64,000 nt of DNA from Streptomyces sp. Mut1 (GTDB lineage: Bacteria > Actinomycetota > Actinomycetes > Streptomycetales > Streptomycetaceae): NCBI RefSeq assembly GCF_030719295.1, contig NZ_CP120997.1, forward strand, positions 1,674,001-1,738,000, in the 5' to 3' direction. How positions within the stretch are numbered: position 1 is the stretch's first letter; every line of letters begins with the position of its first letter. The notes below the pieces were generated by a model, which was given only the letters and a program-made list of their open reading frames with translations, did no database searches and was not told the origin of the DNA. Positions 11,443 through 52,190 of this stretch are shown piece after piece. Position numbers and translations under genes: made by a program.

Positions 11443-13983
11443 TCAGTGGGCGGCGCGTACGGTCAGGGCGCGGCGCAGGTCGTCGAGCTGGTCGGTGATC
11501 TTGCGGCGCAGGGCGGGGGTGAGGGTCTGGTCGGTGAGGGCTTCTTCGCCGAGGTGGAGGCTGTCGGTGTCGATGGCGTGGGCGGGGAAGGCGTGGGCTC
11601 CGGCGGCTTCGGCGATGGCGGGGCCGCGGCGGTTGGCGAGTCGGTTGGCGTCGGGGTAGTAGCGGGGCACGTATGCGCGGACGAGGTCGGTCTGTTCGGG
11701 CTGCCAGAAGCCTTGGGCGATGGCGGTGAAGAGGTAGTTGGAGAGGGTGTCGTCGCTGAACATGGCGTGCCAGGCGGCGGCTTTGGCCTCGGGGGTGGGC
11801 AGGGCGGCGCGGCAGCGGGCGGCGCCTTCCTGGCCGGTGGCGCTGGGGTCGGCTTCGAGGGCGGCGGCGATGGCGGTTTCGTCGGTGGCGCCGAGGACGG
11901 CGAGGCGGGTGAGGATGCGCCAGCGCAGTTCGGGGTCGAGTTCGGGTCCGCCGGGGACGGTGTCGTCGCTGAGCCAGCCCTGGATGGTGTCGGGCTGGGT
12001 GGCGGCGTCGATGAGGTGGCGTACGGCGGTGAGGCGGAGGCCGGGGCGGGTGCCGTCCTCGGTGCGGCGGATGAGGTCGCGGCACAGGGCGGTGAGGGTG
12101 GCGAGGGCGGCGGGCCGGTTGTCGGGGGCGGTGTACCGGGCGGCGATCTGGGTGTCGGCGAAGGTGAGGACGCGTTGGATGATGACGGGGTCGGTCTCGT
12201 GCGGGATGTGGGTGCGGGCGGCTTCGAGGTAGGTGGCGGGGGCCAGTTCGCCGTCTCGGACCATGTCGCGGGCGGCGTTCCAGATGACGGCGCGGGTGAG
12301 GGCGTCGGGGATGCCGGAGAGGCTGGTGAGGACGGTGTTCCAGGAGTGGGGGTCGAGGCGGATCTTGGCGTAGGTGAGGTCTTCGTCGTTGATGACGACG
12401 AGGGCGGGGCGGCGGCCGGGGCGGGTGAGGGGGGTGTCTTCGGGGATGCCGGTCTCGAAGCGTTCGCGCAGGACGAGGGTGGCGGGGCCGTGCCGGGTGT
12501 CGAGGGAGTGGTCGTAGGCGCCGACGCTGATGCGGTGGGGGCGGGTGCCCTGGTGGCCGATGGTGAGGGACCAGGTGGTGTCGGTCTCGGTGGTGTGTGC
12601 GGTGAGGGTGTCGATTCCGGTGGTGCGCAGCCACTGGTCGGCCCAGCCGTGGACGTCGCGGTCGGTGGCCGAGGCGAGGTTGTCGATGAAGTCGGCGAGG
12701 GTGGCGTTGGCGAATTTGTGGCGGGCGAAGTGGGTGTTGATGCCGGCGAGGAAGTCCTTTTCGCCGAGCCAGGCGACGAGTTGGCGCAGGGCGGACGCGC
12801 CCTTGGCGTAGGAGATGCCGTCGAAGTTGAGCAGGGCGGACGCGGTGTCGGGTACGTCGGCGGGGTCGGGGGCGACGGGGTGGGTGGAGGGGCGCTGGTC
12901 GGCGTCGTAGCCCCAGCCCTTGCGGGCGAGGGCGAAGTCGACCCAGATGCCGGGGAATGGGGTCTTGCCTGCTCGAACGGAGTTGAGGCCGTGCGGAAGG
13001 GTGGCTTCGGCGAGGGTCTGGTAGCCCATGTACTCGGCGAAGGACTCGTTGAGCCAGATGTCGTCCCACCAGGCGAGGGTGACGAGGTCGCCGAACCACA
13101 TGTGCGCCATCTCGTGGGCGATGACCATGCCGCGGGTCTGGCGTTCGGTGTCGGTGACGGCCGAGCGGTAGACGAATTCGTCGCGGAGGGTGACGAGGCC
13201 GGGGTTCTCCATGGCGCCGGCGTTGAATTCGGGGACGAACGCCTGGTCGTAGGAGTCGAACGGGTAGGGCTCGTCGAACTTCTCCTGGAACCGGTCGAAG
13301 CAGGCCCGGGTGATGCCGAGGATCTCGTCGGCGTCGGCGTCGAGGTGGGGGGCGAGGGACCGGCGGCAGTGGATGCCGAAGGGCAGGCCGGCGTGCTCGG
13401 TGGTCACGGAGTGCCAGGGGCCTGCGGCGACGGCGACGAGGTAGGTGGAGACCGGCGGCGTGGGGGCGATGGTCCAGCGGCCGTTTCCGGTGTGCTCGGC
13501 GATTCCGTTGCCGAGGACGGTCCAGCCCTCGGGGGCGGTGACGGTGAGGGCGAAGACGGATTTCAGGTCGGGCTGGTCGAACGCGGCGAAGACGCGCTGG
13601 ACGTCGTCCATGAACAGCTGGGTGTAGACGTACGTCTCGTTGTCGCTGGGGTCGGTGAAGCGGTGCATGCCTTCGCCGGTGCGGGAGTAGGTCATCGTGG
13701 CGTCGACGCGCAGTTCGTGGGTCCCGGCGGTGAGGCCGCGCAGGGGGAAGCGGTTCTCGGTGAGGTCCGCGGGGTTCAGCGGCTGTCCGTCCAGGCTGAC
13801 CGAGCGCAGGGTCGCGGGCTTGAGCTCGATGAAGGTGTCACCGGCGGTGCGTGCGGTGAAGTCGATCACGGCGCGGGAGCCGAAGGTCTCCTCCCCCGCG
13901 GTGAGATCGAGTTCGATCGTGTATCGCTGTACGTCGAGGATCTGGGCTCGGGTCTGCGCTTCATCGCGCGTCAGTACGGACAT
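11443..13983 (-). CDS. pepN: Aminopeptidase N (M1 zinc metallopeptidase)
   Basis: Removes N-terminal amino acids from peptides in the cytoplasm. The 846 residues match actinobacterial PepN. The exopeptidase motif GAMENPGLV precedes the zinc site HEMAHMWFGD (HExxH) and the third ligand in WLNESFAEYMG, the M1 family spacing. A C-terminal ERAP1-like helical domain follows. The start MSVLTRDEAQ matches the family. Transcription is separate from the siderophore-like pair, which lies beyond a hairpin. Confidence 0.95.
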   Translation of the reverse strand: MSVLTRDEAQTRAQILDVQRYTIELDLTAGEETFGSRAVIDFTARTAGDTFIELKPATLRSVSLDGQPLNPADLTENRFPLRGLTAGTHELRVDATMTYSRTGEGMHRFTDPSDNETYVYTQLFMDDVQRVFAAFDQPDLKSVFALTVTAPEGWTVLGNGIAEHTGNGRWTIAPTPPVSTYLVAVAAGPWHSVTTEHAGLPFGIHCRRSLAPHLDADADEILGITRACFDRFQEKFDEPYPFDSYDQAFVPEFNAGAMENPGLVTLRDEFVYRSAVTDTERQTRGMVIAHEMAHMWFGDLVTLAWWDDIWLNESFAEYMGYQTLAEATLPHGLNSVRAGKTPFPGIWVDFALARKGWGYDADQRPSTHPVAPDPADVPDTASALLNFDGISYAKGASALRQLVAWLGEKDFLAGINTHFARHKFANATLADFIDNLASATDRDVHGWADQWLRTTGIDTLTAHTTETDTTWSLTIGHQGTRPHRISVGAYDHSLDTRHGPATLVLRERFETGIPEDTPLTRPGRRPALVVINDEDLTYAKIRLDPHSWNTVLTSLSGIPDALTRAVIWNAARDMVRDGELAPATYLEAARTHIPHETDPVIIQRVLTFADTQIAARYTAPDNRPAALATLTALCRDLIRRTEDGTRPGLRLTAVRHLIDAATQPDTIQGWLSDDTVPGGPELDPELRWRILTRLAVLGATDETAIAAALEADPSATGQEGAARCRAALPTPEAKAAAWHAMFSDDTLSNYLFTAIAQGFWQPEQTDLVRAYVPRYYPDANRLANRRGPAIAEAAGAHAFPAHAIDTDSLHLGEEALTDQTLTPALRRKITDQLDDLRRALTVRAAH

Positions 13984-14065
13984 GGGGACATGCTGCCGTA
14001 TCCGCGGGGCGGCGTGCAGGCGGGTTCCGGCGGAACCGGGCGGGGGCGGCCGATCCTTTGAGGGC

Positions 14066-43473: not shown

Positions 43474-44208
43474 TCAGCCTCCGACGGCCACACCGAACAG
43501 CGCGCCGAGCCCGTAGGTGATCGCGGCGGCCGCGCCACCGAGCGTCAGCTGCCGCAGCCCGCTGAACCACCAGCTGCGGGCCGTGACCCGGGCCACCACG
43601 GCACCGCAGCCGAACAGCCCCACCAGGGCGAGCAGCACGGCCGACCACAGGGTGTCCGCGCCCAGCAGGTAGGGCAGGACCGGCAGCAGCGCGCCCAGCG
43701 CGAAGGCGCCGAACGAGGACACGGCCGCCACCAGCGGGGAGGGCAGGTCGCCGGGGTCGATGCCCAGCTCCTCGCGGGCGTGTATTTCGAGGGCCTGCTC
43801 GGGGTCGCGCGAGAGCTGCCGGGCGACCTCACGGGCCAGCACCGGCTCGACACCCCGGGACACGTAGAGCTCGGCCAGCTCCCGCTCCTCGTCCACCGGG
43901 TGCTTGCGCAGCTCGCGCCGCTCGACGTCCAGCTCCGCCTCGACCAGCTCGCGCTGGGAGGCCACGGAGGTGTATTCGCCGGCCGCCATGGAGAAGGCGC
44001 CCGCGGCCAGACCGGCCAGGCCCGTGATGACGATGGTGCGGTGCGAGACGGCGCCGCCCGCGACACCGGTCATCAGGGCCAGGTTCGAGACGAGCCCGTC
44101 CATCGCGCCGAAGACCGCGGGACGCAGCCAGCCGCCGTTGACGTCACGGTGGGTGTGGTTGTCCCGGTGTGCCTCGTGCAGTACGGCGTCGGTCTCGATG
44201 ATGGCCAC
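43474..44208 (-). CDS. VIT1/CCC1-type divalent metal transporter
   Basis: A 244-residue membrane protein of the vacuolar iron transporter family, moving Fe2+ or Mn2+ across the cytoplasmic membrane, probably outward. An N-terminal pair of helices (PAVFGAMDGLVSNLALMTGV, AGLAAGAFSMAAGEYTSVAS) precedes a cytoplasmic metal-binding helical segment rich in Glu/Arg (about 85-150). Three C-terminal helices follow. The ATG is 44208. Its leader contains the inverted repeat that also precedes the opposite operon. Confidence 0.86.
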   Translation of the reverse strand: MAIIETDAVLHEAHRDNHTHRDVNGGWLRPAVFGAMDGLVSNLALMTGVAGGAVSHRTIVITGLAGLAAGAFSMAAGEYTSVASQRELVEAELDVERRELRKHPVDEERELAELYVSRGVEPVLAREVARQLSRDPEQALEIHAREELGIDPGDLPSPLVAAVSSFGAFALGALLPVLPYLLGADTLWSAVLLALVGLFGCGAVVARVTARSWWFSGLRQLTLGGAAAAITYGLGALFGVAVGG

Positions 44209-44284
44209 AGCTGTCCCTCTCCCCTTCTCCGGGAACGGCGTTCACCCGCTCCGCCCCCGCTCGACACCATCGAAAGTACGCACG

Positions 44285-44389
44285 AAAAAGGGCCCCCGCC
44301 AGCAAGGAAGGCCGTACTTACCACCCTGCGTAACCGGATAGGTACGGCTTGCCTTGCTGTCCGGAAGGTTTCATCCGACTGGGCTTTTT
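44285..44389 (+). promoter_or_regulatory. Long inverted repeat / candidate structured leader between VIT gene and ARH operon
   Basis: In the 270-base divergent gap, 18-base arms at 44300-44317 and 44342-44359 pair with two mismatches (CAGCAAGG and CCTTGCTG at the base, GCCGTAC and GTACGGC at the top). TTAC/GTAA extends the stem inward. AAAAAG (44285-44290) can pair with CTTTTT (44384-44389) to close an outer stem. On the minus strand a run of T (44290-44286) follows GC-rich sequence. It could be a leader RNA for either gene or a protein-binding dyad; no known riboswitch class was recognised. Confidence 0.5.
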
Positions 44390-44478
44390 GTACGGATAAC
44401 CGGCCTTCGCGCGCGCTCCGCGTGGAACGGATCCCACAGAGACGAGAACTGGCTCGGTACGAGCGAAGGGTCGACGCG

Positions 44479-45591
44479 ATGGAGACGGTCGCAGGAAATC
44501 CGGCGGCGCCGCGGGCGGGCGGCACACAGACGGCCCGGCTCCCGGCCGGTCCGGACCGGGACACACCGGGTGACCGGGCCAGGGGCGCGCTGCTCGGCCT
44601 CGCGGTCGGCGACGCGCTCGGCGCCCCGGCGGAGAACATGCGGCCCTCCGAGATCCGCCGCCGCTGGGGCCGGATCGAGGGCTTCGTCAGCGACGACCCG
44701 GCCGGCACCGACGACACCGAGTACGCGATCTTCTCCGGGCTGCTGCTGGCCCGGCACGGTTCGGCGCTGACCGTCACCGATGTGGAGCGGGCCTGGCGGC
44801 TGTGGATCGCGGACCTGGACGAGGGGCCGTTCCGGGGCGCGGGCTTCAGCGAGCGCGGCACGCTGGAGAACCTGCGCCGGGGCCTCGCCGCCCCGATCTC
44901 CGCCCAGCACCGGCACGCCTGGAGCGACGGCCTGGCGATGCGGGCCGCGCCCTTCGGCGTCTTCGCGGCCGGGCACCCCGCCGAGGCGGCCCGGCTGGTC
45001 GCGGTCGACGGCCGGGTCAGCCACGAGGGCGAGGGCATCTACGGCGGCCAGGCCGTCGCCGCGGGCGTGGCGGCCGCGATGACCGGGGCCGGTGTCACCT
45101 CCGTGATCGCCGCCGCGCTCTCCGTCGTCCCCATGGACTCCTGGACGGCCCGCTCGCTGCGCCGCGCGGTGACGGCCGCGCGGCGCCCCTACCCCGACCG
45201 GCTCACCGGGGAACGCGCGCTGCGCTCGGCCGTCGTGGTCGGCGGCTACCCGTGGACGGACCTGGCGCCGGAGGCGGTGGGCCTGGCCTTCGGCGCGTTC
45301 GCGGCGGCGCGCGGCGACTTCCGTACGGCGGTGCTGACGGCGGTCAACATGGGCCGGGACGCCGATACGACGGCCGCGGTGGCGGGTGCGCTGGCCGGGG
45401 CGCTGCACGGGGCTTCGGCCGTCCCGCGCGTCTGGGCGGACGCGATCGGGCCGGTGCGCGGGAGCTGCCTGCCCTCGATGCGCGGGTACCACGTCCTGGA
45501 CATCGCGGATCTGCTCGCTCCGGACCGAGCGACGAGAGCCGACGGCGGCGAGGCCCCGCGCGGGCCGGACGCCGGGGCGGTGCGGCGGTGA
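44479..45591 (+). CDS. ADP-ribosylglycohydrolase family protein 1
   Basis: A 370-residue DraG/ARH-type hydrolase, a binuclear-metal enzyme that removes ADP-ribose or related ribosyl groups. After a 34-residue polar extension it has GALLGLAVGDALGAPAE (Asp45, Glu52), the metal motif TDDTEYA (77-83) and the C-terminal NMGRDADTTAAVAGALAGA (Asp294, Asp296, Thr297), so both metal half-sites are intact. The start is ATG 44479 with GAAGGG eight bases before it. It leads a seven-gene operon and overlaps the next gene by four bases (GTGA). Confidence 0.88.
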   Translation: METVAGNPAAPRAGGTQTARLPAGPDRDTPGDRARGALLGLAVGDALGAPAENMRPSEIRRRWGRIEGFVSDDPAGTDDTEYAIFSGLLLARHGSALTVTDVERAWRLWIADLDEGPFRGAGFSERGTLENLRRGLAAPISAQHRHAWSDGLAMRAAPFGVFAAGHPAEAARLVAVDGRVSHEGEGIYGGQAVAAGVAAAMTGAGVTSVIAAALSVVPMDSWTARSLRRAVTAARRPYPDRLTGERALRSAVVVGGYPWTDLAPEAVGLAFGAFAAARGDFRTAVLTAVNMGRDADTTAAVAGALAGALHGASAVPRVWADAIGPVRGSCLPSMRGYHVLDIADLLAPDRATRADGGEAPRGPDAGAVRR

Positions 45592-46796
45592 GCGGGGTGC
45601 GGCGGGCCCGGATCGAGGGGCTGCTGATCGGGCTGGCGGCCGGCGACGCGGCGGGGTGGCCGGCCGCGCGCCACCGGGCGGCCCGGATGCCGGAGTGGAC
45701 CCGGCGCCTGACCCGCGAGCTGGACACCTTCGCCGAGCAGAACGCGACGACCACACTGCCCGTCCCCATCGCGCTCAACCAGCCCCCGGAGCCGCTGCGG
45801 CTCGGCCCGTCCGACGACGCCGAGTGGGCGGCCTTCGCGGCGGGCACCGTACTCGCCGCGGCCACCGGTCCCCGGGACGGCCGCTCCCCCGGCCGCCGGA
45901 TGCGGGCCGCCGTGGACAGCGCCTGGAACGCGCTGGCCGCCGAGGTCGCCGCTGCCGCCGCCCGCGCGCCCGAGGTCGAGTCGGCGGTGCTGCCACTGCG
46001 CGCCCGGATCTCGGTGCGGGCCGGGCTCGGCAACCTCGCCGCCGGGCTCCGCCCGCCCGCCACCGGCCACGACAACCCGCACTACTTCGACGACGCGGCG
46101 TGCGTACGGGCGGCCGTGCTCGCCGTCGTCCACCCCGGCGACCCGGTCGCGGCGGCGGCCCTCGCGGAGTTCGACGCCCGCTACACGCAGGACGGCGACG
46201 GGGTGCACGGGGCGCGGGCCATGGCCGCCGCGAGCGCCGAGGCGCTGGGCGGCGCGGACGTCGACACGGCGGTGAACGCCGCGCTCGACCAGCTCCCCGA
46301 GGGCACCGAGATCGCGCGCAACGCCGCCCACGCGGTCCGGATCGCCCGGGAGTTCGCCGGGGAGCGGGCCGGGGCGTTCGCCCTGGTCCCCGTGCTGGAG
46401 CATCAGATCGTGGACCACGTCTACAGCTACGGGATCGCCGCCGCCGAGACCGTCCCGGTCGCCCTCGCCCTGACCACCGCGGCCCGGGGCGACCTCGCGC
46501 AGGCGGTGCCCGCGGCGGCCTGCCTGTCCAGGGTGGCTGATTCGGCGCCCGCCCTGGCCGGGGCGCTGACCGGGGCCCTGGGATCGCTCGGCTCCGTACC
46601 CGACGGCTGGCGCGAGGCGTGCCGGACGCTGGCCGGGTGTGCGCTGCCCCGGTTCGCGGGCACGGATCTGATCGAACTCGCCGGGCTGCTGGCAGCCACG
46701 GAACCGGCACCCGGAGGTGGACAATTCGGGCATGACATCCACAGTGCCCCTGGCGCCCCCGACGTCCGCGTCCCCCACGACACCCACGCTCGATGA
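45588..46796 (+). CDS. ADP-ribosylglycohydrolase family protein 2, diverged metal site
   Basis: A 402-residue paralogue starting with GTG. The fold markers remain (GLLIGLAAGDAAGWP, PSDDAEWAAFAAGTV), but Glu after the GD motif is replaced by Arg. The C-terminal metal motif, normally G-x-D-x-D-T/S, reads SRVADSAPALAGALTGALG and keeps only one Asp. It may have a different reaction or act as a non-catalytic partner. The last 65 bases overlap the next gene in another frame, and its tail (GHDIHSAPGAPDVRVPHDTH) is low complexity. Confidence 0.8.
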   Translation: MSGVRRARIEGLLIGLAAGDAAGWPAARHRAARMPEWTRRLTRELDTFAEQNATTTLPVPIALNQPPEPLRLGPSDDAEWAAFAAGTVLAAATGPRDGRSPGRRMRAAVDSAWNALAAEVAAAAARAPEVESAVLPLRARISVRAGLGNLAAGLRPPATGHDNPHYFDDAACVRAAVLAVVHPGDPVAAAALAEFDARYTQDGDGVHGARAMAAASAEALGGADVDTAVNAALDQLPEGTEIARNAAHAVRIAREFAGERAGAFALVPVLEHQIVDHVYSYGIAAAETVPVALALTTAARGDLAQAVPAAACLSRVADSAPALAGALTGALGSLGSVPDGWREACRTLAGCALPRFAGTDLIELAGLLAATEPAPGGGQFGHDIHSAPGAPDVRVPHDTHAR

Positions 46797-47925
46797 CCGG
46801 ATCGCGGGCGCCCTGCTCGGCGCCGCGGTCGGCGACGCGCTCGGCGGCCCGGTCGAGGGCCGCCCCCCGGAGCAGATCGTGGCGCGCCACGGCGGCCGGA
46901 TCACCGGCGTCGTCGGCCCGTGGGACGGCGCCGACTGGCGCACCGCCCGCCCGATCGCCCCGTACCACAAGGGCGACGGGCACGTCACCGACGACACCTT
47001 GATGACCCATGCGCTGGTGCGGGTGTACGGGAAGGTGCGCGGCCATCTCGACGCGTACGCGGTGGCCGACCACCTCGTGCCGGAACTGATCGGCGAAACA
47101 CGCTGGATTCCGGAGCTGGAGGCCGAGGCGCTGCCGCTCCAGCGGGTCTTCCTCGCCGAGAAGTGGATCGTGGCCCGGCTGCACTACGGGCACGTCGACC
47201 CGCGCGAGGCGGGCTGCGGAAACATCGTCAACTGCGGGGCGGCGATGTACATGGCGCCGGTCGGGCTGGTGAACGCCGCCCAGCCGCACGCCGCGTACGC
47301 CGAGGCGCTCGATGTGGCGGGCGCCCATCAGTCCAGTTACGGCCGGGAGGCGGCGGGCGTCTTCGCGGCGGCCGTCGCCGCGGCCTGCGCCCCCCGGGCG
47401 ACGCCCGCCTCGGTCGTGGAAACCTGTCTGTCGCTGGCCAAGGACGGCACCCGGGCCGCGATCGAGGCCGTCTGCGAAACCGCCGCCCGCCACCAGGACT
47501 TCGAGGCCGCGCTCGCCCCGCTGCGTGAGGCCGTCGCCCCCTTCGACACCGTCGGTCCCGACTACCGCGCGCCCTCGCTCGGCGCCCGCCGCCCCTCACG
47601 GCTGCACGCCATCGAGGAACTCCCCATCGCGCTCGGCATGCTGCTCGTCGCGGGCGGGGACTACCGGCGGGCGGTGCTCGGTTCGGTCAACTACGGGCGC
47701 GACTGCGACTCGATCGCCACCATGAGCGGCGCGCTCGCGGGCGCCCTGCACGGCGAGCGGGCCGTCCCCGCCGACTGGGCGACGACGGTGGCCGAGGCCA
47801 GCCGCCTCGATCTGCGTGCCCCGGCCCGGACCCTGGCGGAGGTGGCCCGCGAGGTGTTCGCGCAGGACACCGACCGCCGCCGGGCCCACGAGGCCGCCTT
47901 CGCCACGCTGGCGGGCACCCCGTGA
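46732..47925 (+). CDS. ADP-ribosylglycohydrolase family protein 3
   Basis: A 397-residue paralogue with an intact metal site: GALLGAAVGDALGGPVE, GDGHVTDDTLMTHAL (86-89) and NYGRDCDSIATMSGALAGA (Asp324, Asp326, Ser327). The middle region, with AGCGNIVNCGAAMYMAPVGL and AHQSSYGREAAG, is characteristic of a subgroup also found beside ribokinase-type kinases. The ATG at 46732 is preceded by GGAGG at a long spacing; no later in-frame start is available before the conserved domain. Confidence 0.85.
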   Translation: MTSTVPLAPPTSASPTTPTLDDRIAGALLGAAVGDALGGPVEGRPPEQIVARHGGRITGVVGPWDGADWRTARPIAPYHKGDGHVTDDTLMTHALVRVYGKVRGHLDAYAVADHLVPELIGETRWIPELEAEALPLQRVFLAEKWIVARLHYGHVDPREAGCGNIVNCGAAMYMAPVGLVNAAQPHAAYAEALDVAGAHQSSYGREAAGVFAAAVAAACAPRATPASVVETCLSLAKDGTRAAIEAVCETAARHQDFEAALAPLREAVAPFDTVGPDYRAPSLGARRPSRLHAIEELPIALGMLLVAGGDYRRAVLGSVNYGRDCDSIATMSGALAGALHGERAVPADWATTVAEASRLDLRAPARTLAEVAREVFAQDTDRRRAHEAAFATLAGTP

Positions 47926-49304
47926 CCACGGCGGTGCGCGTGACCTGGGTGCAGCCGGAGGACCTGGTGGGCCACGAGCTGCGGCAGGCCGCCGAGGACG
48001 GGCGCGACGCGCGCGACATCGCACGCCGGTGGTACGAGGCCGGCGGCTCCCCCGCCCCGGAGCGCGCGGGCGCCTCCGCCCCGGGCGCCCCGCCCGGACT
48101 GCGCGCGGTCGCCGAACGGCTGCTGGACGAACTCGCCCAGCTGGAATCCCCGCTGGCGGACGACGAACCGACCGGCCTGGACGCGATCCGGGCCGCCTGC
48201 CCGCAGTGGCCGCACCCCCGGACCTGGCAGGCGGCGGCCGGCCGGGAACGGCTGCACGCGGCCTGGCTGGGGCGCGCGGCCGGCTGTCTGCTGGGCAAAC
48301 CCGTCGAGAAGCTGCCGCTCGAAGGCATCCGCGCCCTGGCCCGCGCCACCGGGAACTGGCCGCTGGACACCTGGTTCACCGCCCGGGGCCTGCCCGCGTC
48401 GCTGGCGGCCACCTACCCGTGGAACCGGCGCTCCGCCGCCACCTCGCTGGCCGAGAACATCGACGGGATGCCCGAGGACGACGACCTCAACCACCCGCTG
48501 CTCACCCTGCTGCTGCTCCAGCGGCACGGCCGGTCGTTCACCACCGCCGACCTGGCCCGGCTGTGGCTGGACGAGCTTCCGGCGGGGCGTACCTTCACCG
48601 CCGAGCGGATCGCGTACCGCAATCTGCTGGACGGGGTGGAGCCGCCGGACACCGCCCGCCACCGCAACCCGTTCCGGGAGTGGATCGGCGCCCGGATCCG
48701 CGCCGACATGCACGGCTGGACCCGGCCGGGCGACCCGGCGGGTGCGGCGGAGCAGGCGTACCGCGACGCGGTCCTCACCCACACCGGGAACGGCGTCTAC
48801 GGGGCGATGTTCACGGCGGCGGCGCTGGCCGAGGCGGCCGCGGGCGAGACCGATGTGCACGGCTGCCTGGCCACCGGGCTGCGGGTGGTGCCGCCGCGCT
48901 CGCGGTACGCCCGCGCGGTGCGGGACGGCATCGCGGCGGCCCGCGCGGAACATGATTTCGATACGGTCGTCGACCACCTGCACGCGGTGTACGGCAGGTA
49001 TCACTGGGTGCATGTGCTGCCCAACGCGGCCCTGCTGGCCGCCGCCCTCACCCATGCCGACGGCGACTTCACCGGTTCCGTCTGCAAGGCCGTCTCCGGC
49101 GGCTGGGACACCGATTCCAATGGCGCGACCGCCGGTTCGCTCGCCGGACTGCTCGCCGGGCGGCCCGACGCGCTGCCGGACCGGTGGACCACCCCGCTGA
49201 AGAACCGGCTCGCCACGTCCGTCCCCGGATTCGACTCGGCCGGCTTCGACACCCTGGCCGGCCTGACCCACCGGCTCACCCACGAGGAGGCACTCCGCCC
49301 ATGA
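47922..49304 (+). CDS. ADP-ribosylglycohydrolase family protein 4, N-terminally extended
   Basis: A 460-residue paralogue with a roughly 105-residue N-terminal extension before the core. The core motifs are LGRAAGCLLGKPVEKLPL (Cys in place of the usual Asp, as in one known subgroup), GMPEDDDLNHPLL and VSGGWDTDSNGATAGSLAG. It starts with GTG overlapping gene 3 by four bases, and its stop overlaps the ribokinase-family start (ATGA). Sequence divergence from the other three suggests a distinct substrate. Confidence 0.85.
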   Translation: MTTAVRVTWVQPEDLVGHELRQAAEDGRDARDIARRWYEAGGSPAPERAGASAPGAPPGLRAVAERLLDELAQLESPLADDEPTGLDAIRAACPQWPHPRTWQAAAGRERLHAAWLGRAAGCLLGKPVEKLPLEGIRALARATGNWPLDTWFTARGLPASLAATYPWNRRSAATSLAENIDGMPEDDDLNHPLLTLLLLQRHGRSFTTADLARLWLDELPAGRTFTAERIAYRNLLDGVEPPDTARHRNPFREWIGARIRADMHGWTRPGDPAGAAEQAYRDAVLTHTGNGVYGAMFTAAALAEAAAGETDVHGCLATGLRVVPPRSRYARAVRDGIAAARAEHDFDTVVDHLHAVYGRYHWVHVLPNAALLAAALTHADGDFTGSVCKAVSGGWDTDSNGATAGSLAGLLAGRPDALPDRWTTPLKNRLATSVPGFDSAGFDTLAGLTHRLTHEEALRP

Positions 49305-50185
49305 CCAGAGTCGCGGTGCTCGGCAGCACCAATATGGATCTTGTGGCCTACGTCGACCGGGCCCCGGAGCGCGGGCAGACCGTCACCGGCCGGGAGTTCC
49401 GCACCATCCCCGGCGGCAAGGGCGCCAACCAGGCCGTCGCCGCGGCCCGCGCGGGCGGCGACGTGCTGATGATCGGCGCGGTCGGCGACGACGAGTACGG
49501 CGTACGGATGCGGGAGAGCCTGGAGCACTCCTGCGTCGACACCGATCTCCTGCACACCGCCGAGGGCCCCAGCGGCACCGCGCACATCGTGGTCGACGCC
49601 CAGGGCTCCAACGCGATCGTGGTCGTCCCCGGCGCCAACGGCACCGTCACCTCGCTCGGCCCCGGTGAGATCGCCGCCATCGCCGAGGCCGATCTGCTGC
49701 TGCTCCAGCTGGAGCTGCCGCTGTCGGCGGTGATCGAGGGCGCCAGGGCCGGTCACGCCCAGGGTGTACGGACCCTGCTCACCCCCTCCCCCGTGCGGAA
49801 ACTGCCCGCCGAACTCCTCGACCACGTCGATCTGCTGATCCCCAACGAGCACGAGGCGGCCGAGCTGTCCGGCTACGAGGAGCCGCACGCGGCGGCGGAG
49901 ATCCTGCTCTCCCAGGTCCCGGCGGTGCTCATCACGCTCGGCGCGAAGGGCTGCCTGTACGCGGCCCGGGGCAGCCGCACGATCCACTTCCCCGCCCCGG
50001 AGGTCATCGCCGTCGACACCACGGGCGCCGGGGACACCTTCGTCGGCACGCTCGCCGTGGCGCTCGGCGAGGGCCGTCCGGTGCCGCAGGCCATCGCCTG
50101 GGCCTCGGCGGCCGCCGCGCTCTGCGTGCAGAAACCGGGCGCCTCGGTCTCCATGCCGTACCGCAGCGAAATCGACGCCGCGTGA
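49301..50185 (+). CDS. Ribokinase-family (PfkB) carbohydrate kinase
   Basis: A 294-residue kinase close to ribokinase. N-terminal GSTNMDLVAYVDRAPERGQT and the substrate-site GGKGANQAVAAARAGG are typical. The C-terminal signature DTTGAGDTFVGTLAVALGEG holds the catalytic Asp. It should phosphorylate ribose or a nucleoside-like product. Coupled translation with four ribosylglycohydrolases suggests that it captures the sugar they release. The gene overlaps both neighbours by four bases. Confidence 0.88.
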   Translation: MTRVAVLGSTNMDLVAYVDRAPERGQTVTGREFRTIPGGKGANQAVAAARAGGDVLMIGAVGDDEYGVRMRESLEHSCVDTDLLHTAEGPSGTAHIVVDAQGSNAIVVVPGANGTVTSLGPGEIAAIAEADLLLLQLELPLSAVIEGARAGHAQGVRTLLTPSPVRKLPAELLDHVDLLIPNEHEAAELSGYEEPHAAAEILLSQVPAVLITLGAKGCLYAARGSRTIHFPAPEVIAVDTTGAGDTFVGTLAVALGEGRPVPQAIAWASAAAALCVQKPGASVSMPYRSEIDAA

Positions 50186-51381
50186 GCGCGCCGGGGGCGG
50201 CGCCGCTGACCGGGCTGCGCGTCGTCGATCTCGCCACGCTGTTCGCGGGCCCGCTCTGCGCCACGATGCTCGGCGACTTCGGCGCCGAGGTGATCAAGGT
50301 CGAGCACCCCACCCGCCCCGACCCCTCCCGGGGTCACGGGCCCGCGAAGGACGGCATCGGCCTGTGGTGGAAACTGCTCGGCCGCAACAAGCGGAACCTG
50401 ACGCTGGACCTGTCCTGCCCGGACGGCCGCGATCTGCTGCTGCGGCTGGCCGGGAGCACCGATGTGATCATCGAGAACTTCCGGCCGGGCACGCTGGAAC
50501 GCTGGGGCCTCGGCCCGGAGGAACTGCACGCCGTCAACCCACGGCTGGTGCTGGTCCGTGTCACGGGCTTCGGCCAGTTCGGCCCTTACGCCCACCGGCC
50601 CGGCTTCGGGACCCTCGCCGAGGCGATGAGCGGCTTCGCGGCGATCACCGGTGAGCCGGACGGGCCGCCGACGCTGCCGCCGTTCGGGCTGGCCGATTCG
50701 ATCGCGGCGCTCGCCACGGCGTACGCGGTGATGGCGGCGCTGGCCGGCCGCGACCGCACCGGCGAGGGGCAGGTGGTCGACATGGCGATCATCGAGCCGA
50801 TCCTGACCGTGCTCGGCCCTCAGCCGCTCTGGTACGACCAGCTCGGTTACGTACAGCCGCGCACTGGCAACCGCTCGCGCAACAACGCCCCCCGCAACAC
50901 CTACCGCACATCGGACGGCCAGTGGGTAGCCGTCTCCACCTCCGCGCAGTCCGTCGCGGAACGGGTGATGCGCCTGGTCGGGCGGGCGGAGCTGATCGAC
51001 GAGCCGTGGTTCGCCTCCGGCACCACCCGCGCGGAGCACAGCGACGAGCTGGACGAGGCCGTCGGCCACTGGATCGCCCGGCACACCCGGGACGAGGCCC
51101 TGTCCGCGTTCGAGAAGGCGGAGGCAGCCATCGCACCCGTCCACGACATCCGGGACGTGATGGAGGACCCGCAGTACCGCGCTCTGGACTCCGTCACCGA
51201 GGTGGACGACCCGGAGCTGGGCCCGCTGCGGATGCAGAACGTCCTCTTCCGGCTCTCCCGGACCCCGGGGGCGATCCGCTGGACGGGCCGCCCGCACGGG
51301 GCCGACACCGAGGAGATCCTCACCGAGCTGGGGCTGAGCGGCCCGGAGATCTCGGCGCTGCGGGCGGAGCGGGTGCTGTGA
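50182..51381 (+). CDS. Class III CoA-transferase (CaiB/BaiF family)
   Basis: A 399-residue family III CoA-transferase, which moves CoA between carboxylic acids. The N-terminal LRVVDLATLFAGPLCATMLGDFGAEVIKVE and FRPGTLERWGLG are family hallmarks (quoted in part). The catalytic Asp lies in FGLADSIAALATAYAVM. It starts with GTG overlapping the kinase gene. Together with the following lyase it could activate and cleave a dicarboxylic or hydroxy acid, as in citramalate or itaconate breakdown. Confidence 0.88.
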   Translation: MSAPGAAPLTGLRVVDLATLFAGPLCATMLGDFGAEVIKVEHPTRPDPSRGHGPAKDGIGLWWKLLGRNKRNLTLDLSCPDGRDLLLRLAGSTDVIIENFRPGTLERWGLGPEELHAVNPRLVLVRVTGFGQFGPYAHRPGFGTLAEAMSGFAAITGEPDGPPTLPPFGLADSIAALATAYAVMAALAGRDRTGEGQVVDMAIIEPILTVLGPQPLWYDQLGYVQPRTGNRSRNNAPRNTYRTSDGQWVAVSTSAQSVAERVMRLVGRAELIDEPWFASGTTRAEHSDELDEAVGHWIARHTRDEALSAFEKAEAAIAPVHDIRDVMEDPQYRALDSVTEVDDPELGPLRMQNVLFRLSRTPGAIRWTGRPHGADTEEILTELGLSGPEISALRAERVL

Positions 51382-52190
51382 GCGCGGCGGCCCCGCTCAC
51401 CCTGCTGTACGTGCCCGGGGACCGGGCGGACGTGATCCGCAAGGCGGCCGTCTCGGGGGCGGACGTGGTGATCGTGGACCTGGAGGACGCGGTCGCCCCC
51501 GACCGCAAGGAGTACGCGCGCTCGGCGACGGTGGAACTCCTCTCCGACCCGCCCTCCGCCACGGCGGCGCCGGTCCATGTCCGGGTCAACGACGAGGCGG
51601 ACGTGCTGGCCCTGGCGGGGCTGCCGGGGCTCGGCGGGCTGCGGCTGCCGAAGATCACCCACGCCGCGTCCGTCCACCACATCGCGGCGCTGGCCCCCGG
51701 GGTCGCCCTCTGCCCGCTGCTGGAGTCCGCCCTCGGCATCGAGCACGCCTACTCGGTGGCCTCCGCCCACCCCCAGGTCCACGCGGTCGCCCTGGGCGAG
51801 GCGGACCTGAGGGCCGATCTGGGCGTACGGGAGGACGCGGGGCTCGACTGGTCGCGCAGCCGGGTGGTGGTCGCCGCCCGTGCGGCCGGCCTGGCACCGC
51901 CGGCCCAGTCGGTCTTCCCGGACATCCGGGACCTGGACGGCCTGTGGTCCTCGTGCGCCCACGGCCGGGCGCTGGGCTTCCTGGGCCGGGCGGCGATCCA
52001 CCCCCGGCAGCTCCCTGTGATCGAACGGGCGTTCCGGCCGACCCCGCAAGAGGTCGAAGCGGCCTGGCACGTCGTGGAGGCGGCCCGCGACCAGGCAGGA
52101 GCCCAGGCCCTCCCGGACGGCCGCTTCGTGGACGCGGCGGTGGTCGCACAAGCGCAACGCACGCTCGCCCTGGCCGAGCGCGAGCGGTGA
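51378..52190 (+). CDS. CitE/HpcH-type CoA-ester lyase
   Basis: A 270-residue TIM-barrel lyase of the citrate lyase beta/malyl-CoA lyase group. It shows LLYVPGDRADVIRKAAVSGA, VIVDLEDAVAPDRKEYAR (metal-binding Glu/Asp), LPKITHAASV, PLLESALGI and ALGEADLRADLG. It should cleave a 3-hydroxyacyl-CoA to acetyl-CoA plus an oxo acid. It is the last gene of the operon, followed by a terminator 52 bases downstream. Confidence 0.86.
   Translation: MSAAAPLTLLYVPGDRADVIRKAAVSGADVVIVDLEDAVAPDRKEYARSATVELLSDPPSATAAPVHVRVNDEADVLALAGLPGLGGLRLPKITHAASVHHIAALAPGVALCPLLESALGIEHAYSVASAHPQVHAVALGEADLRADLGVREDAGLDWSRSRVVVAARAAGLAPPAQSVFPDIRDLDGLWSSCAHGRALGFLGRAAIHPRQLPVIERAFRPTPQEVEAAWHVVEAARDQAGAQALPDGRFVDAAVVAQAQRTLALAERER

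Follow-up and report, generated by a model that had tools for sequence, protein, structure and literature searches.

A conserved actinobacterial gene set of ADP-ribosylglycohydrolase-fold proteins, a CoA-transferase and a CoA lyase, probably for catabolism of a sugar conjugate

Introduction

In the yegTUV unit of Escherichia coli an NHS-type transporter is encoded together with YegU, a protein of the ADP-ribosylglycohydrolase (ARH) family, and YegV, of the PfkB family, and the unit has a repressor, YegW/GgaR. It is the nearest described unit to the genes considered here, and its own function is given as unknown (PMC10819704). The present work concerns a stretch of 64,000 nucleotides from Streptomyces sp. 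Mut1 (contig NZ_CP120997.1, positions 1,674,001 to 1,738,000), hereafter the window, in which seven genes encode four ARH-fold proteins (A, B, C and D), a predicted ribokinase (E), a CoA-transferase (F) and a CitE-like lyase (G). A reading made from the sequence alone had suggested one catabolic route for them, in which ribosyl conjugates are hydrolysed, ribose is captured by phosphorylation, and the freed acid is activated with CoA and cleaved; it is upheld in part here. The data presented below are best explained if ABCDEFG supplies the cytoplasmic part of a catabolic operon under LacI repression, the substrate being an acylated sugar conjugate taken up from outside.

From its position, we take the operon to be probably SCO2028–SCO2034 of Streptomyces coelicolor. 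In PMC5087735 and PMC9411070 that species is described as having many more ADP-ribosylhydrolases than transferases, which is read as a sign of a lively ADP-ribosylation metabolism.

Conservation of the gene set in relatives

Relatives were collected in two ways. A search with D covered 197 genomes of the class and gave a match at 1e-10 in 40, of which 33, the window's own included, had at least 52% identity over most of the ARH domain; larger stretches around these D matches and paralogues form the class sample. The genome scan, with one genome per species, used an alignment of C as bait, and the best 80 of 580 confirmed relatives, ranked by likeness to the divergent copy L039, were analysed; 79 belong to Actinomycetota, and no lineage is given for L154, titled [Kitasatospora] papulosa. 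The 66-locus count comprises the scan loci of at least 18.9 kb, 14 shorter ones having been dropped. Presence was scored from tblastn matches that cover no less than 30% of the query; in the 66-locus and class-sample counts at least 30% identity was also required, and for LacI and E the identity threshold in the 66-locus count was 33–35%. Genes of relatives were called with a simple codon model, whose listing has no entry for L170 and L173.

The bait C, F and G are present in all 66 loci, D in 65, and E in 45. A LacI-type regulator and the MalF-like and MalG-like importer genes were each found in 59 loci and a substrate-binding protein (SBP) in 58, and all four are linked to the set in 58 of the 66. 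B always co-occurs with A in this count: 16 loci have A and B only, 49 have instead a protein designated GH-FGE, one has both, and none has neither. The GH-FGE protein (L117:13310-15151 and relatives) consists of an alpha-glycosidase-like TIM barrel fused to a C-terminal FGE/EgtB-like domain; its first part has no Pfam match, and its Foldseek TM-scores are low, at most 0.38 over the whole model in the rows shown. Since GH-FGE takes the place of A/B in 49 loci and the kinase occurs in only 45, the core of the set is C, D, F and G. Strict mutual exclusion of A/B and GH-FGE is ruled out by their joint presence in the one locus mentioned and in 9 of 20 class-sample loci.

Beside the window's own genome, the class sample has 33 loci with C; of these, 31 have A and B, 32 have D, 27 have E, and 31 each have F and G. 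Outside the genus, 18 of this sample's 20 loci carry the LacI, MalF-like, MalG-like and SBP genes, the other two (L040 and L084) being cut by contig ends, and nine have all 12 genes. The usual order is LacI-MalF-MalG-SBP-(A-B)-C-D-(E)-(GH-FGE)-F-G. It is not fixed: in L039, L108, L109, L132 and L162 F-G stands first, ahead of C, and D is followed by A-B, while L173 lacks D and E.

The set recurs across many actinobacterial families without common flanks. That the genes are a chance neighbourhood inherited in close relatives only deserves practically no credence: the flanks gltB, VIT, lgt, dsbA, trpA and trpB are also kept in 13 same-genus loci, as this explanation would have it, but outside the genus the gene set stays together without them, which already refutes it. 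The view of the seven genes as one catabolic unit is supported by this linkage across families with different flanks and by the LacI regulator and sugar importer linked to it elsewhere. Co-occurrence in close relatives only, which the sequence-only reading had named as a ground for giving up a single pathway, is therefore not what is seen.

LacI regulator, operator and importer

In several loci, perfect palindromes such as TTGGAAACGTTTCCAA lie 5' of LacI. A consensus operator, TGKAAACGTTTMCA, was written after palindromes had been seen in the same loci. When up to two mismatches are allowed, 59 of 60 loci have it in the stretch that begins 350 bases upstream of LacI and ends 30 bases within the gene, versus three sites in the 1,208,003 bases of remaining sequence of these loci. 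Its core is of a type common to LacI-family operators. The SBP profile matches many sugar-binding proteins. With the linkage in 58/66 loci and the operator in 59/60, the conserved set has the composition of a LacI-controlled CUT1 sugar operon, and the conservation of importer, LacI and operator speaks for a catabolic operon that is induced by its substrate, rather than for reversible ADP-ribosylation.

The window copy does not have this composition. It is flanked by VIT/gltB and lgt and has no linked transporter, its importer genes are elsewhere, and no operator site was found in the window, in the importer-bearing locus L188 or in ten Streptomyces loci checked. The seven loci without LacI are Streptomyces with gltB/lgt flanks, L154 among them, and four other Streptomycetaceae loci (L158, L160, L166 and L171, of which L160 and L166 are named Streptomyces) have LacI and the importer directly before A. 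Since these four keep the linkage, the window arrangement is best read as its loss within the genus. Their LacI proteins are 52–57% identical to that of L041, from another family.

With the L160 SBP as query, a single match at 1e-15 was obtained in the window genome (6383355-6384527, 63% identical). It is adjoined by MalF and MalG orthologues that are 67–75% identical to the copies of L158, L160, L166 and L171. A phosphotransferase of the APH family lies beside the relocated importer, as do genes that we take to encode glycogen/trehalose enzymes.

ARH-fold proteins

All four proteins exceed the PF03747 cut-off of 26.2 bits, with 207.7 for A, 106.1 for B, 171.9 for C and 160.9 for D, so that their earlier assignment to the DraG/ARH family stands. 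A was aligned to the DraG structure 2woe. The di-metal ligands are E, DD and DxD-T/S, and the letters were aligned to DraG. A keeps all six ligand positions, in 17–18 of 18 rows with one gap; in C they are kept in every row with a residue there (79 rows, one to three gaps), and the same holds for D (77 rows), gaps over the three proteins numbering 0–4. In B the glutamate ligand is replaced by R and the first D of DxD by V, and none of 19 rows keeps either residue: the glutamate position holds R in 13, D in four and a gap in two, and the first-D position V in 14, N in four and I in one. Hence the metal motifs do differ, as the sequence-only reading had noted. A picture of four parallel hydrolases is not supported: B, having lost two canonical ligands, lacks the pattern of a catalytic ARH and looks non-catalytic. 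B matches the profile of A (E 1.2e-48), and from these alignments it is probably a non-catalytic partner of A.

The fold of D is like that of DraG/ARH, its N-terminal part of about 100 residues being hardly covered by the fold comparison. A phylogeny of the four proteins, which the sequence-only reading had suggested as a check, placed A, B, C and D each in a clade of its own, with SH-aLRT values of 98, 100, 97 and 100 (65 chosen rows; a quick tree with no bootstrap and a long-branch warning from the tool). Recent tandem duplication of the four is rejected, given the separate clades.

The ARH family and the DraG-type metal sites could suggest reversible ADP-ribosylation. Proteins, nucleic acids or small molecules would then be the targets from which A, C and D strip ADP-ribose, with the kinase, transferase and lyase as unrelated passengers. 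In PMC5087735 and PMC9411070, ADP-ribosyltransferases of S. coelicolor are named and SCO2028–2031 are listed as uncharacterised DraG/ARH homologues. However, A scores 79.3 against the DraG equivalog TIGR02662 (cut-off 337.05) and 53.4 against the Tri1 equivalog NF041672 (cut-off 490), C and D score below A on both, and B has no match. No ADP-ribosyltransferase is among the eight flanking genes identified by Pfam, the rest of the window and the genome not having been scanned for transferases; to that extent the earlier statement that none is encoded nearby holds. SCO2028 and SCO2030, which probably correspond to A and C, were inactive on U-alpha-ADPr, one substrate only (PMC13036486). Given also that LacI and the sugar importer are linked with D, F and G in 58/66 loci and that the operator accompanies them, reversible ADP-ribosylation is less likely as the main role, and we regard this explanation as improbable.

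The window genome (7.99 Mb, four contigs) has ten PF03747 matches, eight of them substantial, four of which are in the operon. A weak match on contig 1 (118752-119168) contains two in-frame stops and overlaps a short strong match; it is possibly an ARH remnant.

Kinase, CoA-transferase and lyase

By Pfam, E belongs to PfkB, F to CoA_transf_3 and G to HpcH_HpaI. E scores 305.3 against the ribokinase model TIGR02152 (cut-off 299.65), the only NCBIfam equivalog cut-off reached in the operon, and falls below that of a second ribokinase model, NF008353 (257.3 vs 341); it was aligned to the solved ribokinases 6znx and 1gqt. F matches PF02515 with 415.2 bits (cut-off 23.3), and its solved relatives include 4ed9, the best, and 9br7, succinate-hydroxymethylglutarate CoA-transferase (SUGCT), matched with E 2.6e-48. 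G matches PF03328 with 108.8 bits, and its glutamate and aspartate align to solved lyases in four of the five alignments shown. Both F and G fall below every NCBIfam equivalog cut-off listed; for RipC/Ccl (NF038242), G scores 145.1 under a cut-off of 375. The structure of Rv2498c (6aq4) matches G with E 6.1e-23, Rv2498c being a distant CitE-like relative.

Close relatives of F without an adjoining ARH set, many accompanied by G, have PrpD-like, amidohydrolase, racemase-like and FAD enzymes around them, to which Liv-type importers are added in some cases; others adjoin a TRAP (DctM)-like gene. These neighbourhoods were assigned by Pfam for the genes of L091, L092 and L093 only and by clustering for the rest. 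The F-G pairs of L093, L095 and L097 adjoin a gene of this TRAP (DctM)-like type (Pfam on the L093 copy), an arrangement to be expected with a free organic acid. In genome G121 the contig ends 1.85 kb beyond an A–D operon, a stretch free of E, F and G, and F-G stand on another contig beside a DctM gene. This and the other F-G contexts agree with a free carboxylic acid as the substrate of F and G; they suggest a di- or tricarboxylic acid and name none.

Rv2498c, a mycobacterial beta-hydroxyacyl-CoA lyase, cleaves (R)-hydroxymethylglutaryl-CoA (HMG-CoA) and (S)-citramalyl-CoA (PMC6689899). From this activity and the likeness of F to SUGCT, HMG or citramalate is a reasonable guess for the acid, although an acid of either type must be called rather unlikely. 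HMG-acylated plant glycosides exist (PMC11044239), which is a lead and not evidence.

In a further group of loci (L088, L091, L092, L096 and L098–L101) close relatives of F, often joined by G, share a cluster with an IclR-type regulator and with PrpD-like, allantoinase-like, racemase-like, FAD and cyclase genes. This group apparently represents a separate uncharacterised acid-catabolism cluster.

Proposed pathway

We think it fairly likely that ABCDEFG is part of a catabolic operon for an imported sugar conjugate. Sequence comparison shows that the set is conserved, that relatives have LacI and a CUT1-type importer with it, that an operator-like palindrome precedes LacI, and that the metal sites of A, C and D are intact. 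The importer would take up a glycoside with a beta-hydroxy (di)carboxylic acid attached to it. Its sugar bonds would be hydrolysed by the A/B pair (in most relatives the GH-fold/FGE protein), C and D through the di-metal ARH mechanism, and the freed furanose, ribose or a look-alike, would be phosphorylated by E where needed. F would transfer CoA from succinyl-CoA or a similar donor to the freed acid, and G would split the resulting beta-hydroxyacyl-CoA into acetyl-CoA and an oxo acid. That the freed acid undergoes CoA activation and C–C cleavage is an inference, but both F and G occur in 66/66 loci.

The favoured substrate is an acylated furanoside of a beta-hydroxy acid, with a furanoside or riboside as such rated at somewhat less than an even chance. 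Of the proposed capture of ribose by phosphorylation, the ribokinase call was upheld by TIGR02152, but the step is optional and ribose is unproved. Likewise, the presence of the GH-fold/FGE protein in place of A/B means that their target may be an ordinary glycoside rather than specifically a ribosyl conjugate. Alternatively, the conjugate could be an alpha-hexoside (glucoside-like), with the ribokinase serving a minor product. This seems unlikely, since E passes a ribokinase cut-off, a common fold shows no substrate, the Foldseek scores are low and the activity of GH-FGE is putative.

Several points weigh against import and catabolism of such a conjugate. A small-molecule substrate is not known for any enzyme of the set, 21 of 66 loci lack E, and a single kinase family is the reason for proposing ribose as the sugar. 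Since the catalytic sites of ADP-ribosylhydrolases are kept in A, C and D, substrates of the ADP-ribose type are possible. A LacI orthologue was not found in the window genome (18 matches, the best 39% identical and none above 41%), and the SBP was not found at E 1e-60 in five of the 13 other operon-bearing same-genus genomes, for which reason the substrate may be internal in this genus. The Streptomyces lineage might have re-used the operon for an internal metabolite, e.g., in salvage of a ribosylated or damaged cofactor, after loss of LacI and separation of the importer, in line with the missing LacI and operator, with the five operon-bearing genomes in which the SBP was not found, and with retention of the operon by 13 of the 15 same-genus genomes sampled. 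However, the SBP is still carried by the window genome and eight others (8 of 15, all eight among the 13 with the operon), it was not found in the two sampled genomes that lack the operon, a number too small to carry weight, and the Streptomyces loci L160 and L166 keep LacI and importer in place. Internal re-use appears unlikely, and import and catabolism of a sugar conjugate is preferred.

At about even chances, we propose a nutritional pathway of Actinomycetota in which ARH-fold di-metal glycosidases act on a conjugate other than ADP-ribose, are partly interchangeable with the GH-fold/FGE protein, and are coupled to enzymes that activate the aglycone acid with CoA and cleave it in a retro-Claisen reaction.

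Organisation of the operon and related gene clusters

The seven genes form a plus-strand block with all frames open (Table 1) and with G+C at third codon positions of 0.93–0.95. As previously noted from the sequence, there are five overlaps of four bases (A/B 45588-45591, C/D 47922-47925, D/E 49301-49304, E/F 50182-50185 and F/G 51378-51381) and one, B/C, of 65 bases (46732-46796), which becomes 80 bases with the alternative GTG start of C at 46717.

Table 1. Position of the operon genes and associated features (window coordinates unless indicated)
Feature	Position	Strand	Description
A	44479..45591	+	ARH-fold hydrolase, DraG-like, 370 aa (amino acids); probable partner of B
B	45588..46796	+	Diverged ARH-fold protein, 402 aa
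C	46732..47925	+	ARH-fold hydrolase, 397 aa; search bait of the genome scan
D	47922..49304	+	ARH-fold hydrolase, 460 aa, N-terminal extension of ~100 residues
E	49301..50185	+	PfkB-family ribokinase, 294 aa
F	50182..51381	+	Family III (CaiB/Frc) CoA-transferase, 399 aa
G	51378..52190	+	HpcH/HpaI (CitE-like) beta-hydroxyacyl-CoA lyase, 270 aa
Intergenic region 5' of A	44209..44478	+	LacI-type operator not found (<=2 mismatches); present in relatives keeping LacI
MalF-MalG-SBP importer, apart from operon	L188:8124-11094 = window genome contig 1 ~6381623-6384593		

The eight flanking genes identified by Pfam are VIT, gltD, gltB, lgt, DsbA-like, trpA, trpB and trpC, and the flanks gltB-VIT and lgt-dsbA-trpA-trpB are kept in all 13 other operon-bearing same-genus genomes read. 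The VIT-family gene (43474-44208) is divergent from A and shares its intergenic region; it also neighbours A in the 13 same-genus loci and in eight genome-scan loci, and not in L158, L160, L166 and L171.

Of 68 loci listed, 18 have an esterase-like gene within the cluster or next to it (19 gene calls, three of them tested for PF00756), which counts in favour of the proposed pathway. Clustered with it are proteins of ~770–870 aa encoded directly after G (L110:17834-20140 and relatives), the one tested having an N-terminal PF00756 domain, a beta-propeller repeat and a C-terminal hydrophobic stretch. Linkage of ARH and PfkB genes is also found in the paralogue clusters L042, L044 and L050. In L050 (2463-10813) a distant relative of D accompanies a DHDPS-family aldolase, an Opp-type ABC transporter, an FCD-type GntR regulator and a PfkB kinase; it is a further catabolic cluster with an ARH, in which the downstream enzyme differs. 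In L042 an alpha-amylase family gene (12577-14058) lies beside a LacI/importer/D/E/A/B paralogue cluster.

Significance and comparison with known systems

No description of this gene set was recognised in the open-licence literature searched. A LacI/CUT1 catabolic operon is an ordinary kind of system; it is for ARH-fold hydrolases joined to a CoA-transferase/lyase pair in such an operon that no description turned up there. The new points are the wide conservation of the set, the importer, regulator and operator missing from the window locus, the degenerate B, the optional kinase and the GH-fold protein in place of A/B, and the set is probably a widespread, uncharacterised actinobacterial pathway. 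If this is true, four of the eight listed S. coelicolor ARHs, like four of the eight substantial PF03747 matches in the window genome, would belong to a sugar-conjugate pathway, much of the ARH excess would be explained and re-annotation would be called for; part of the ARH family would be catabolic glycoside hydrolases and not erasers of protein modification. Since gene set, operator and importer are conserved, growth tests, binding assays and metabolomics should be able to lead to the substrate.

The DraT/DraG and ARH1/ARH3 systems share with this operon the fold, as seen for D, and the di-metal ligands of A, C and D. Unlike them, the present set comprises an importer, a kinase, a CoA-transferase and a lyase, no transferase is among the flanks examined, and the equivalog scores are far below the cut-offs. 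Dissimilation of itaconate/citramalate (RipC/Ccl) and Rv2498c share with G the CitE-like lyase family, and the itaconate pathway starts with a CoA-transferase. However, the operon has no hydratase, G is below the RipC cut-off, and its substrate would come from hydrolases and, in relatives, through a sugar importer. Human SUGCT is of the same CoA-transferase family as F, although F is below all equivalog cut-offs listed.

The yegTUV unit resembles the set in combining a predicted ARH-family hydrolase, a sugar kinase and a transporter with a dedicated repressor (PMC10819704). It differs in having one ARH and no CoA-transferase or lyase, a GntR regulator (LacI here) and a major facilitator superfamily (MFS) transporter (ABC here). 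Its linkage of ARH, PfkB and transporter is also seen in the relatives analysed, where E is present in 45 of 66 loci.

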